From positions 4,030,001-4,094,000 of the forward strand of contig NZ_JAGF01000001.1 in the NCBI RefSeq assembly GCF_000526515.1: a stretch of DNA of 64,000 nucleotides, given 5' to 3'. The notes beneath the pieces are model-generated. The model was given only the letters and a program-made list of their open reading frames with translations, ran no database searches and was not told the origin of the DNA. This document shows, piece by piece, positions 4,154-8,713 of this stretch. Origin of the DNA: Cellulomonas sp. KRMCY2 (GTDB lineage: Bacteria > Actinomycetota > Actinomycetes > Actinomycetales > Cellulomonadaceae). The translations under genes and the position numbers were made by a program. Position 1 is the first letter of the stretch; every line of letters begins with the position of its first letter.

Positions 4154-4246
4154 GAGGATCAGATCGGCAGGGCGCACGGTTGGCTGAGGCGATCCGGCTG
4201 AGCAACCGGACATCGGGACGACCCGCCCGCAGCCCGCTACCGGCAC

Positions 4247-4284
4247 AAAAGGCCGCGACCCGCATCTCTGCTGGTCACGGCCTT
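4247..4284 (-). terminator. Probable original tRNA-Leu terminator
   Basis: On the minus strand an imperfect hairpin with 12-base arms (AAGGCCG paired with CGGCCTT, then one mismatch, then GACC paired with GGTC) is followed by a TTTT run. It lies 8 bp beyond the left copy of the tRNA 3'-end repeat, where a terminator for the tRNA would be expected if the island were removed. Confidence 0.6.
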
Positions 4285-4292
4285 CATGCTCA

Positions 4293-4325
4293 CTGTCTCA
4301 ACGAGTGTCCGGAGGGGGACTTGAA
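4293..4325. repeat. attL-like direct repeat (tRNA-Leu 3' end copy)
   Basis: 33 bp identical to 8481-8513. It contains the last 20 bases of the tRNA-Leu gene (acceptor 3' strand and part of the T arm) plus 13 bp downstream of it. No other part of a tRNA is present here, so it is an attachment-site duplicate and not a gene. Confidence 0.85.
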
Positions 4326-4388
4326 GCGGCTGGACGGGTGATCCTGACCTGCGGAAACGCTAGCTTGTTCTAGTTTGTCTCACAGTTT

Positions 4389-4448
4389 GGGTGCATGTGG
4401 GTGCACCGGAGTGCACCTAGCGGACGGTTGGTGCACCCATGGGTGCAC
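4389..4448. repeat. Phased GTGCA repeats with an 18-bp palindrome
   Basis: GTGCA begins at 4391, 4401, 4411 and 4431, that is in exact 10-bp steps with one step skipped, and again at 4443. The last two form the perfect palindrome GTGCACCCATGGGTGCAC (4431-4448). The same 18-bp palindrome recurs at 8401-8418 near the other end of the island. Helical phasing is what binding arrays for a DNA-bending or recombination protein look like; the binder is unknown. Confidence 0.7.
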
Positions 4449-4565
4449 GGGTCGGCGACGGTCGACGGCCGTCTTCGCGATGCTCCAGGCAGGAGCCTCG
4501 AGCGGGTGACCTGGCGGCTGTAAGCCTCCCGGAGGGGACAGGGCAGCAACACGGGTAGGAGGTGG

Positions 4566-5375
4566 ATGCCCACCACGAGCGCCGCGTTGATACTGGCTGG
4601 CATCCCAGGCGTGCGGTTCACCGCAGGGTCCGACATCCGGATACCGGCGGGAGCGCTTCGCGTCTCCATCGGCGAGGACGGCAAGCCGACGATGGATCCC
4701 ATCGTCCCCCAGTTGCGCACGGACATGTGGCCGCACTGGCTCATCGAAGCGGTTGACGCAGTGCCTGCCGCCCGTAGCGCCGCCGACGAGGTCTCGAGGC
4801 TCGCTGCGGTTCCAGAACGAGACGAGGCTGCTCTCGATCTCGCGCTAGGTGCCGAGTTGCGGGCAACGATGCGCGCCATCACCGCCCCTGCGTTCGCGGT
4901 CGACTCGTTCTACTCGTCCGTCAAGGCGCGTTCGCCAGCCCATCCTCACGCAGAGGCGTGGCGCGCCCACCGAACACCGCGACACGCGCAGGTCTACGAG
5001 ACGATTCGCTACAGTCTCAAGCTCAGGAACCCAGGCGCTCGCAAAGTCCGCGAGCGCATCAGGGAGCTCTTCCGGCTCCGAGACTGGGCTGTGCACCCCG
5101 GGTCGCAGTTCCGAGACCCGATCCTGCGGGCTGACGTCGATTCGGGCGTCGACTGGCACTTCATGGTCTTCCGCGCCGACAACGCCGTAGGAGCCGTCGC
5201 CAAGACCGTGAACATGATGGACATCCTCGTAGCGCGGATGCTTCGAGGCAGCGAAGAACTGAGACGGAGCCACGCCGGCGCCCGCAAGGCAATGACGCAG
5301 GTCCTTGAGGCATACGACCGGGCCCACCTACCCGCATTCGATAGGGCCGATGAGTCGGAGGCGAGCGGGTCCTAG
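4566..5375 (+). CDS. Hypothetical protein with HEPN-like motif
   Basis: 269 residues, soluble, no membrane segment or signal. The central and C-terminal parts are predicted helical and contain LRDWAVHPGSQFRDPI at about 171-186; R172 to H177 fits the R-x(4-6)-H motif of HEPN domains, many of which are RNases or toxin/defence components. A similar R-D-x-A-V-H-P pattern is common in actinobacterial proteins of unknown role. The start is ATG at 4566, with AGGAGG at 4557-4562 just ahead (spacing is short). Codon choice is less extreme in G/C than in the flanking chromosome, in keeping with an acquired island gene. It is the largest gene of the island. HEPN assignment is a motif reading only; fold and activity are unproven. 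Confidence 0.7.
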   Translation: MPTTSAALILAGIPGVRFTAGSDIRIPAGALRVSIGEDGKPTMDPIVPQLRTDMWPHWLIEAVDAVPAARSAADEVSRLAAVPERDEAALDLALGAELRATMRAITAPAFAVDSFYSSVKARSPAHPHAEAWRAHRTPRHAQVYETIRYSLKLRNPGARKVRERIRELFRLRDWAVHPGSQFRDPILRADVDSGVDWHFMVFRADNAVGAVAKTVNMMDILVARMLRGSEELRRSHAGARKAMTQVLEAYDRAHLPAFDRADESEASGS

Positions 5376-5648
5376 GTACGCGGCACGACCCTCGGAGCGG
5401 TATGCCGCCATGCCACCCGCGGCCAGATCCGGGCGAGCGCGCCGCCCTCGGTGCGGCATGAGCGTGCAAGGGAGTGGCGACCAACCGCTCGCGCTTGTGT
5501 CTGAGGCATTCGATCGGGTGAGCGTCTGCGCCGTCGCAGGGGTGCGACCTGGCCGAAGTTGGGACCTCACGATGGCCCGGATCCGCGATCATGGAGCCGT
5601 TGCCAGCCGTACGCTCGGGTGGTCGATCCCAGGAAGGTGGCGCAGCTG
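5376..5648. other. Intergenic stretch in island
   Basis: About 270 bp between the HEPN-like gene and the lipoprotein gene. Frames on both strands are open in places but rich in Arg/Pro/Gly and look spurious. No clear promoter, hairpin or repeat was seen. Confidence 0.4.
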
Positions 5649-6050
5649 ATGCGACGGAAGTCCAAGGTCGTTCTCCCCGGCTTCGGCTTGGTGCTCCTCA
5701 CGGGTTGCGGGCAAACAGCCGCAGAGGCTGCCCCGGAAACGGCGCCGCCGAGTCCACCGGTCGCCGACTCGGTAACGGCGACCGATGAGACACCTCAGTC
5801 GGACCCGTGCGCGGATCCGGCCGTGGCGACGCGGGTCGACGAAGCGCTGGCATCAGATTCTGAAGGCCCGCACAACAGCATCCTGGTCTCTCCGGAGGAG
5901 ATGCTCGAGATGGGTCATACCGAGGCCGACGCTGCCGGACAGCTGGTGGAATGGGAGAAGCTGAGCTCCGAAGACGTCGCGTTCCAGCAGTGCCTACGCG
6001 CCCGGCAGGGCGATCCCCTGCTCGACCCGGTGCCGGGCCACGACGGGTGA
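5649..6050 (+). CDS. Small putative lipoprotein
   Basis: 133 residues beginning MRRKSKVVLPGFGLVLLTGC: basic n-region, hydrophobic core and lipobox LLTGC, so a surface-anchored lipoprotein is likely. A Pro/Ala/Thr-rich linker follows, then a folded-looking acidic region with two further cysteines (SDPCADPAV and FQQCLRARQ) that could form a disulfide. ATG at 5649 is preferred because it places the signal peptide at the N-terminus and has AGGAAG about 12 bp upstream; an in-frame GTG at 5637 is possible but too close to that site. No family recognised. It is followed 68 bp later by a membrane-protein gene on the same strand. Confidence 0.65.
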   Translation: MRRKSKVVLPGFGLVLLTGCGQTAAEAAPETAPPSPPVADSVTATDETPQSDPCADPAVATRVDEALASDSEGPHNSILVSPEEMLEMGHTEADAAGQLVEWEKLSSEDVAFQQCLRARQGDPLLDPVPGHDG

Positions 6051-6118
6051 CTGACGCGCTCTCTCACACGTCACGCTCGATGTAGCGCCCGGGCGCACCG
6101 GTGAACAGGGGGATGCAC

Positions 6119-6829
6119 ATGGGGGCTGTCGGTCCGGGCGCACGGCGTCTGGCTGCAGTGCTCGGTCCTGCCCTGGTCGTCCTCGGCGTGGTCGCCTTCG
6201 CGGTCGGTCTGGTGCACTGGCTCGAACCGACGTGGGCCTCGACGAGCGAGGTCGCCGTGCCGATGCAGGTGAGCTCCTCGGACGGCCGTGGCGCCGACCT
6301 CAGGCTTGAGGTCGACCTCGCGCCGTACTCCGAGGTCTGGGTCAGCGGCGTACCGACCGGCGGGTTACCTGACCGCGACCACCGGTCGGAACCGCTCGGG
6401 ATCGTCGTGCTCCACGCGCCCGAGGCTTCACTGACCGAACAGCTCCTCTCGCGAGCGGACCTCATGCTCCGTGGAGTCGCCCTGCTCGTCGCCGCGATCG
6501 CGCTGCGCCCTGTGCTTGTCTCCATCGCCGAGGGGGGCCCATTCCGGCCGGGGCACGAGCATCGGCTGCGCGTCGTGGCCGGCTGCGTGATCGCCGGGGG
6601 CTACCTCGCTCCGCTCCTGCCGTGGTGGGCGAGCGCGTCGGTACTGGCGCGGCTGGAGGGGGCGTACGGGCTCACGGCGACCCCAACGCACCACCTCGAG
6701 GCGTTCGTCGTGGCGGCGCTCGTCGTGCTCATCGGTGCTGTCGTACGTGCCAGCACACCTGACCCGCATGAGACAGCCGGACGGCAGGTCCGGAACTCCG
6801 ACAGCATCGAGCGGGAGCCGGACGCCTAG
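6119..6829 (+). CDS. Membrane protein, DUF2975-like
   Basis: 236 residues with about four membrane segments: LAAVLGPALVVLGVVAFAVG near the N-terminus, an extracytoplasmic stretch of about 80 residues, then LMLRGVALLVAAIALRPVLV, VVAGCVIAGGYLAPLLPWWA and FVVAALVVLIGAVV. Between segments two and three, SIAEGGPFRPGHEHRLR resembles the conserved G-G-P-F element of DUF2975 proteins, often found beside small Cro-type regulators, none of which is present here. ATG at 6119 has AGGGGG six bases upstream; earlier starts at 6101 and 6113 sit on or before that site. The role in the island is unknown. Confidence 0.65.
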   Translation: MGAVGPGARRLAAVLGPALVVLGVVAFAVGLVHWLEPTWASTSEVAVPMQVSSSDGRGADLRLEVDLAPYSEVWVSGVPTGGLPDRDHRSEPLGIVVLHAPEASLTEQLLSRADLMLRGVALLVAAIALRPVLVSIAEGGPFRPGHEHRLRVVAGCVIAGGYLAPLLPWWASASVLARLEGAYGLTATPTHHLEAFVVAALVVLIGAVVRASTPDPHETAGRQVRNSDSIEREPDA

Positions 6830-7147
6830 CGTCTGGGTGCCGACCCGCGACATCGCCACCGTCTCCTGCTGTCGAGAGCCACCGCGTGGCAGGAGAGCCG
6901 GGCTCCTCGAAACTCGCCCACAAGACCAAGGCCGACGCGGCGCGCCATCCGCACATCGGCTACGCCGGACGGTCCAGCGCCTTCGCCACGCTCCGCCCCC
7001 TCCAGAATGCGGACACGGCCGGTTGGCAAGGATCGTGTCTGCTCCGCGTGTCAACGGTCGGTTCACGCCTCCCAGAGCCGATGCAAGACCCGCCGTCCGC
7101 CCTCCCCGTCGCTCGGATACGCGGGGGCTGGCGCGATCGGGGGCACG
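6830..7147. other. Intergenic stretch in island
   Basis: About 320 bp between convergent genes. Short open frames exist on both strands but none has a ribosome-binding site or natural composition, and no remnant of an integrase or transposase could be read in any frame. No clear terminator was identified. Confidence 0.4.
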
Positions 7148-7749
7148 CTAGGTGGAGAGTGAGACGCTGAGGAGGTCGGCCGCAGCCGACTCCAGGGCGT
7201 CGACCTCGGTTTCGAAGTTGCGCAGGTAGGACCACGCTTCCCTCACGCGTGTGGCCTTGTCGACGCCTTGATCTCGCAGCGGTTCCATCATCTGGTCGGG
7301 AGCGGCGACGAAGAGGGCTTGAGCCCTCTTGAGAGGTTCCTGCAAGGGTCCGTTGCCGATCTCGAGGCGTGCCTGTCCGAAGGATGAGTGCAGGGCATCC
7401 ACGACCTGCGCAGTTCCCGACCCGAGTCGGTGTCGAGGAAGGCGGTGAGTGTCAACGACGCCTGAAAGTGAACCCCGGATCGTCGGGACCAGGGGGTCAG
7501 TCTTCAGCCGTCGTCGACAGTGAGATTGTCCGTATCGAACGTTGCCCATCCGGGAGCCAGGACCAACTGCATGTCCGCCCATCTCCTCGCGTTGCGAATC
7601 AAGTCGCTCAGAAGCGAGCGAGCGCGGTCCCGTGCGGAGTCCCGGCGTGCGCGCTCGGCGTCACGCGCTGAGAGCGCGTGGCCGAGCCAGACGCCGCCAA
7701 GTCCTGTCGCACCGACGAGCACTGAGCTGAGCACGTTCGTGATGTCCAC
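7148..7749 (-). pseudogene. Frameshifted membrane-anchored helical protein
   Basis: From a GTG at 7749 (GGTGGGG upstream) the frame reads MDITNVLSSVLVGATGLGGV, one membrane segment, then a charged helical stretch ARDAERARRDSARDRARSLL and stops at 7504 after DNLTVDDG. The neighbouring frame is open straight through that point and carries on with a protein-like sequence ending RVREAWSYLRNFETEVDALE and SVSLST at 7148. Together they give one product of about 200 residues of a type common in actinobacteria: membrane anchor plus coiled helices. One inserted or lost base near 7500-7520 explains the break; a read error or two separate small genes cannot be excluded. Confidence 0.5.
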
Positions 7750-8048
7750 GTCCCCACCATCCGGCCCCGCTGGCAGGTCGCCTGCGGCGACACGCCGTGC
7801 TTCCCGCGCGTCCAGCTCTTCGCCGCTCCAAGAGTCGTCCGGCTGGAGAGTTCTCTTCCAGCGCGCGCGTGCCCGCCGCGGCGGGCATACGACCACTGAC
7901 GTTGGGCTGTCGAGTTGGCCCCGTCGTTGGATCGCCCGAGCCCGCGGCGACCGCTGTAGACGCCGCCCAGCAGCACGGGTAGTCGGCGCTCTGGGGGCGG
8001 AATCTCTCGCGGCTCGAAGCGCTGGCGCAGCCCGGGGCGGGGATGGAC
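7750..8048. other. Intergenic stretch in island
   Basis: About 300 bp upstream of the frameshifted gene. Long frames cross it on both strands but with Arg/Ala/Pro-rich, low-complexity translations. It presumably holds the promoter of the minus-strand gene; no clear motif could be fixed. Confidence 0.35.
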
Positions 8049-8267
8049 TCAGCTGACGGCAGCCTCTGGTCCGGACCGCTTCCGCATCTCGCCCCGCTTG
8101 CCGGGCCTCAGCGATCGCGCCTCGACCTCCTCTCGTGAGAGGGCGGGCAGGATGGCTGCCTTCACGGCGTTCAAGGAGTTCGCCATTGCCTGGGCCAGCG
8201 CCAGTGGGCGGTTGCCCAACTCCTCTGACTCCACGGCGGGGGTCGACTCGCCCGTGAAGACACCCAC
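8049..8267 (-). CDS. Possible small protein, 72 aa
   Basis: From an in-frame GTG at 8267 the product reads MGVFTGESTPAVESEELGNR, then an amphipathic region LAQAMANSLNAVKAAILPAL and a basic end LRPGKRGEMRKRSG. The composition is natural and unlike the Cys/Arg/Pro-rich extension upstream in the same frame, which translates the palindromic right end of the island. No family is recognised, and a plus-strand frame over the same DNA is also open, so this is only a candidate. Confidence 0.35.
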   Translation of the reverse strand: MGVFTGESTPAVESEELGNRPLALAQAMANSLNAVKAAILPALSREEVEARSLRPGKRGEMRKRSGPEAAVS

Positions 8268-8350
8268 GCACGACCTGCTCCGCGTGTCTTGCAGAGGCCC
8301 TGGGAGTCGGGGACGTGTCGGCTGTTCGCTGCGTGACGCCCCTCGTAGGC

Positions 8351-8399
8351 GTGTCCGGAGGGGGAAGCAACAGGCCTCCCAACCCCCATCCGGACACAC
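8351..8399. repeat. Third partial tRNA 3'-end copy in a hairpin
   Basis: GTGTCCGGAGGGGGA (8351-8365) repeats the last 14 bases of the tRNA-Leu gene and one base beyond. It faces an inverted near-copy ending CCGGACAC at 8399, giving a stem of 8 plus 5 pairs with a small bulge and an 18-nt loop. The inverted arm runs directly into the 36-bp palindrome at 8392-8427. Confidence 0.6.
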
Positions 8400-8427
8400 G
8401 GTGCACCCATGGGTGCACCGTGTGTCC
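8392..8427. repeat. Perfect 36-bp palindrome near right end of island
   Basis: Every one of 18 base pairs on each side of the centre (between 8409 and 8410) matches. The arm is GGACACACGGTGCACCCA. Its core, 8401-8418, is the same 18 bp as the palindrome at 4431-4448 near the left end. Possible roles are a binding site for a recombination or replication protein, or a cruciform. Confidence 0.8.
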
Positions 8428-8436
8428 CGCCACGAC

Positions 8437-8470
8437 AAAGCCCCCAACCGCGTTTCCGCAGATCAGGGGC
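8437..8470 (-). terminator. Present tRNA-Leu terminator supplied by the island
   Basis: On the minus strand, GCCCC pairs with GGGGC around an inner stem CTGCG-GAAA-CGCGG, followed by TTTGT. It lies 24-57 bp after the tRNA 3' end and differs in sequence from the hairpin at 4247-4284, so it appears to come from the island. Confidence 0.55.
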
Positions 8471-8493
8471 AGTATCGTCGCTGTCTCAACGAG

Positions 8494-8576
8494 TGTCCGG
8501 AGGGGGACTTGAACCCCCACGCCCGTTAGGGCACTAGCACCTCAAGCTAGCGCGTCTGCCATTTCGCCACCCGGAC
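8494..8576 (-). tRNA. tRNA-Leu(GAG)
   Basis: Complete 83-nt class II tRNA. Acceptor GTCCGGG pairs with TCCGGAC (one G-U), discriminator A. The anticodon stem CTAGC/GCTAG encloses loop TTGAGGT, so the anticodon is GAG, reading CTC and CTT. A variable arm GTGCCCTAACGGGCGT is as expected for leucine, and the T arm contains GTTCAAGTC. CCA is not encoded. A TATCTT at 8621-8626 (minus strand) is a possible -10 box. Its 3' end is the integration site of the 4.2-kb island to the left. Confidence 0.95.
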
Positions 8577-8713
8577 AGGGTGCGTCGAGCGGGCCCTGGA
8601 GCCCCTCGAGCGCGGGAGCCAAGATAGCACGGAGCGGCGCCGCGCCAGGACTCGCCGACTGCGGCACACTGACCACCGACGGCGCGACAGGCGCCCTGCG
8701 ACGAGGAGCACCG

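Follow-up and report, generated by a model that had tools for sequence, protein, structure and literature searches.

Beside the tRNA-Leu(GAG) gene of Cellulomonas sp. KRMCY2 lies a 4.2-kb island that is very probably what remains, after decay, of a small integrative element which once encoded a tyrosine integrase. This reading is favored because the island is bounded by att repeats whose site is single-copy in relatives, its left arm is homologous to a phage-type attachment site (attP) lying beside an intact integrase gene, and the C-terminus of an integrase survives in the matching place and orientation. It is also favored because related integrases follow a tRNA, with tandem repeats in between. 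The analysis started from the window, the whole stretch of 64,000 nucleotides, and from an earlier note in which the island was described as flanked by att repeats and devoid of a recombinase. Coordinates of all features are given in Table 1.

Table 1. Features of the tRNA-Leu(GAG) island and its borders (positions in the window).
Feature	Position	Strand	Observation
T1, terminator-like hairpin next to the distal att copy, interpreted as the tRNA-Leu terminator of the host	4247..4285	-	Relatives have a similar sequence at this place
Distal att copy, 33 bp	4293..4325		Exact repeat, 0 in 100 shuffles
Left arm region (putative)	4343..4448		GGTGCAC-type sites at 4391 (imperfect), 4401, 4411, 4431 and 4443; 18-nt palindrome 4431-4448
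269-aa orphan ORF	4566..5375	+	No Pfam, NCBIfam or PADLOC match; weak PHROGs match (E 0.072)
133-aa small protein, reads as a lipoprotein	5649..6050	+	Matched in 8 of 219 other genomes of the family, most closely in G015 (67%)
242-aa predicted membrane protein	6101..6829	+	53% paralogue in the same genome, inside the tRNA-Pro island
Miniature IS21-like element, 70 bp (7450-7519)	7445..7524		5-bp target duplication GTGAG on both sides
Putative tyrosine integrase C-terminal remnant	8049..8204	-	Matched stretch 8073-8204; stop 8049-8051
Right arm (putative), 36-bp perfect palindrome	8392..8427		GGTGCAC sites at 8401 and 8413
T2, terminator-like hairpin between arm and tRNA, read as element-borne	8437..8471	-	Same layout in L113 and L149
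tRNA-proximal att copy, 33 bp	8481..8513		Exact repeat
tRNA-Leu(GAG), target gene, intact	8493..8576	-	ARAGORN, Rfam

The repeats described in the earlier note are borne out. The island is enclosed by two exact copies of CTGTCTCAACGAGTGTCCGGAGGGGGACTTGAA, 4188 bp apart, and no such match arose in 100 dinucleotide shuffles of the window, even with up to three mismatches allowed. The right copy consists of the last 21 nt of tRNA-Leu(GAG), the sole tRNA found by ARAGORN in the window, and 12 nt downstream. The left copy was also considered as the end of a second, decayed tRNA, which the note had named as grounds for giving up the insertion. This does not hold: the identity with the right copy ends after 33 bp, neither ARAGORN nor Rfam gives a match there, and a terminator-like hairpin precedes the copy, as it does at the single site of the relatives.

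Just inside both ends of the island, arm-like repeats of GGTGCACC are present, which had been overlooked in the earlier note, as had both hairpins. These sites may be integrase-binding arms. The 18-nt palindrome GTGCACCCATGGGTGCAC contained in them occurs twice in the 4.5-Mb genome (4431-4448 and 8401-8418 of the window), both times in the island, and in none of the 219 other genomes of the family. Within 8351-8397, just inside the right arm, a further 15 nt repeat the sequence of the tRNA 3' end and form an inverted pair with 8384-8397. Three stretches of viral contigs contain the palindrome. Two of them, L111 and L112, share one sequence and were taken, by eye, as chance matches in coding DNA. 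The third, L113, is a stretch of the 83-kb IMG/VR contig 3300013104_000004 and the only match of the combined att-arm pattern among the viral contigs.

The organization of L113 is attP-like: arms are followed by TTCAAGTCCCCCTCCGGACAC (the tRNA-Leu 3' end), a hairpin, GGGTGCACCGTGGGTGCACGG and then the integrase gene, and ARAGORN finds no full tRNA in the stretch. The gene starts ~45 bp inside the arm and encodes a 428-aa tyrosine integrase with a PF00589 domain at residues 200-375. L113 shares with the island the tRNA-Leu 3' end, the hairpin, GGTGCACC arms with an identical stretch of 22 nt, and an integrase C-terminus homologous to the tail found in the island. It differs in that its integrase is intact and in the 12 nt after the tRNA end. 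The left arm of the island aligns to the L113 arm with a score of 76, against a maximum of 32 in 500 mononucleotide shuffles; the right-arm alignment (score 44, reached in one of 500 shuffles) is suggestive only. The comparison spans 6.3 kb of the contig, the limit within which shared cargo was sought.

The claim that the island holds no recombinase stands for an intact one, but a C-terminal tyrosine integrase remnant was recovered at 8073-8204 on the minus strand by tblastn, a genome search and phmmer. A tblastn search of positions 4200-8600 with the L113 integrase gave one strong match (8198-8073, minus strand, 42 residues, 50%, E=2e-8). The same remnant was recovered in a separate search of the whole genome at E=5.7e-5, where the ten other matches listed all coincide with PF00589 places. 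Among 1020 ORFs of the window searched by phmmer, 8204-8073 reached an i-E of 6.3e-7, the runner-up 0.45. The remnant corresponds to residues 384-427 of the L113 integrase, beyond the PF00589 domain, and the catalytic domain is therefore absent; where an integrative element has an intact integrase, the C-terminus alone remains here. It is located just inside the tRNA-proximal end. The tail begins ~200 bp inside the arm, in comparison with ~45 bp for the start of the L113 integrase, so ~1 kb of the gene is missing. An alignment of the leader beside the right arm to L113, where the integrase N-terminus would lie, was not significant (43 of 500 shuffles scored as high). An HMM built from L113 and ten related integrases did not find the remnant, which is matched by a single integrase, that of L113. 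The assignment of 8073-8204 to a tyrosine integrase leans on one homologue together with position and orientation. Since this C-terminus survives, the puzzle of the missing recombinase is largely resolved. The first of the two options offered by the note, a remnant, is supported by the placement of the C-terminus, which is sited as the integrase is in the related viral attP.

Six integrases with 34-40% identity to that of L113 were identified in six of 394 genomes of the class. In five cases the integrase frame follows closely on a tRNA: tRNA-Leu in L146, L148 and L149, tRNA-Gly in L144 and tRNA-Ala in L147; none was found near the L145 integrase in the stretch examined. In L148, GGGCGCACGAAGGGTGCACC precedes the integrase, and other tandem repeats occupy this place in L146 and L149. 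Searches for closer integrases gave at best 40% in the 394 class genomes, 31.6% among the 30 of 610 phage records listed and 34.1% among the 10 of 39 plasmid records listed; among viral contigs, only the contig of L113 itself was found.

Another tRNA island was observed in the same genome. It is 15 kb long (L102:1581-16729, about 1851581-1866729 of the genome), is inserted at tRNA-Pro(CGG) and has an open integrase frame. Its repeats, 93 nt long and 92% identical, include the terminator, thus a terminator in the attachment region is not peculiar to the tRNA-Leu island. The two islands have in common a tRNA 3' target, a terminator in the attachment region and a membrane protein paralogue, and are distinguished by size, by the open integrase frame and by the target.

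In all 18 other genomes of the genus, both tRNA-Leu(GAG) and the AI-2E transporter gene after it (identified by Pfam) are present. In the sequence retrieved next to the tRNA, 0.8 to 18 kb per genome depending on the contig, 18 of 18 have a single copy of the 33-mer, when up to seven mismatches are allowed; 17 copies are exact and one has four mismatches. Direct repeats that include a tRNA 3' end, at a site single-copy in relatives, are in agreement with an element targeted to a tRNA, and the proposed integration is supported by this result. The comparison of the locus, which the note had put forward to reveal an empty site, confirmed the single repeat copy in full, but the empty site is seen only for the att and terminator region, because the sequence to the left of the tRNA differs from one member of the genus to another. 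The immediate left flank of the island is common to no relative examined, and the nearest conserved gene found leftward lies ~4.4-5.0 kb left of the start of the window. Among the 18 relatives (L039-L056), 17 agree in all of the 12 nt that follow tRNA-Leu(GAG) on its left side, and the hairpins and neighboring genes differ. The region left of the gene is suggested to be a variable, insertion-prone spot in the genus.

Relatives have a terminator-like hairpin ahead of the att site, and in the window one hairpin is found beside each copy. The closest matches of T1 are in G001 (92%), G013 (92%) and G006 (89%). T2, as judged by eye, most resembles the terminators of G018 and G011, which also rank among the closest relatives when the DNA to the right of the site is compared (81% and 80%). 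T2 thus looks more native than T1, the reverse of what a simple insertion predicts for this lineage. An origin of the element in a G018-like host would account for this mismatch. The likeness of T2 to the terminators of the nearest relatives, and the variability left of the tRNA, would also suit a reading in which the 4.2 kb are native DNA, the left att copy and T1 having arisen by duplication or by recombination with another tRNA-Leu locus. This is most improbable: the 4.2 kb bear the same rare palindrome at either border, the left border shows homology to the arm of a viral attP, the tail of an integrase survives, and no solid homologue of the main ORF was found in the family. Counted against the remnant reading itself are the match of the tail to one integrase, the marginal right arm, the more native-like T2 and the unshared left flank.

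The two att copies do not differ from each other, and each end retains its palindromic arm intact. These features would be expected of a working non-autonomous element, moved in trans by a co-resident or incoming integrase of the L113 type, with the tail as a leftover of its origin; the viral contig shows that such an integrase exists, next to arms that match and to this tRNA end. Such mobility is nevertheless unlikely, and it is similarly doubtful that the island lives in actinobacteria as a minimal parasite on phage integration, travelling on an L113-type phage integrase. A search of 220 genomes with the palindrome revealed no second copy of the island. The att-arm pattern has no match beyond L113 except for five in Corallococcus in the genome contigs, which were taken as chance; no tRNA is present in any of them, and the three that were read out are near-identical. 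The genome has 20 PF00589 matches, and the nearest of the 16 listed is ~183 kb away. In the 14 stretches covering these 16 matches, no arm cluster was found outside coding sequence, an arm cluster being defined as four or more GTGCACC/GGTGCAC starts within 130 bp, a definition by which degenerate arms would be missed. The sole cluster detected, in L104, was discarded since it falls within integrase coding sequence. The search proposed in the note for elements with the same ends and different cargo gave none in the genome or viral contigs, collections that may omit records near the genome of the window. Accordingly, the second option of the note, a non-autonomous element mobilised in trans and new for actinobacteria, found no backing in a second copy, an element with the same ends or an armed integrase.

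The cargo is small. The orphan ORF has short, weak matches in three of 220 other family genomes and three of 393 other class genomes, several of which cross stops, and none in phages, plasmids, viral contigs or the PDB. It contains an R-x4-H motif that may be HEPN-like; the HEPN reading was set aside, as the structure predicted from the single sequence is of too low quality (pLDDT 42.8). After this ORF, the stretch at ~5402-5468 is matched at three further places of the genome (570416, 958752 and 3645631; 85-89% over 42-66 bp) and is perhaps a dispersed intergenic repeat. The small protein gave only sub-threshold families in profile searches, and its lipobox presumably marks it as a lipoprotein. 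The membrane protein is matched in three of the 18 other genomes of the genus. The miniature IS21-like element, with both ends fused, sits between two minus-strand frames of the island. Its halves match two places of G014 that are 2.1 kb apart, and the frames between them are presumably IstA/IstB-like. The frame 7148-7582 was rejected as a shared protein, because its matches in two other family genomes are to the IS21-like end. Transfer families were found in none of the six island frames scanned, and no PHROGs match of these frames is better than E 0.0069, that one to a family of unknown function.

On the remnant reading, the element would have entered by recombination of its attP with the 3' end of tRNA-Leu(GAG). 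This attP would have comprised the tRNA-Leu 3' end, the element's own terminator hairpin and, on either side, arms of the GGTGCACC type. Integration would have restored the tRNA with the terminator of the element, T2, and the host's terminator T1 would have ended 4.2 kb away from the tRNA. About 1 kb of the integrase gene, including the catalytic domain, was then presumably lost by internal deletion. The island would now be fixed, unless a cognate integrase arrives from outside.

In a review, CIMEs are described as elements that have lost their integration and transfer genes and kept attL and attR (PMC5704250), and 15 ssrA islands without integration modules in Dehalococcoides have been suggested as possible CIMEs (PMC3146451). 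As elements with attL and attR and no integrase are already described in these texts, an integrase-less island is not new in kind. Judged by the same texts, the tRNA-Leu island fits the CIME description in form: both have kept attL and attR, here identical over 33 bp, have lost the integration genes and are located at a tRNA 3' end, and no transfer family was found in the six frames. CIMEs derive from an ICE or IME and are mobilised by accretion with a neighbour; for the island, the closest integrase found is in a viral contig, and no adjacent partner element was found. A phage satellite of the PICI type has its own integrase and genes acting on helper phage packaging or regulation; the island has lost its integrase, and no gene of the latter kind was recognized among its six frames.

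The island thus looks like an ordinary decayed mobile element, CIME-like, rather than a new kind. It illustrates how the arms of an attachment site, together with the final piece of a lost gene, can explain an island with no apparent recombinase. A rare arm motif and integrase type, for which a single viral contig was found here, are now tied to a bacterial tRNA-Leu site. Its biology would be that of a routine decayed island; if it were true that it moved in trans, it would provide a small model of integrase sharing.
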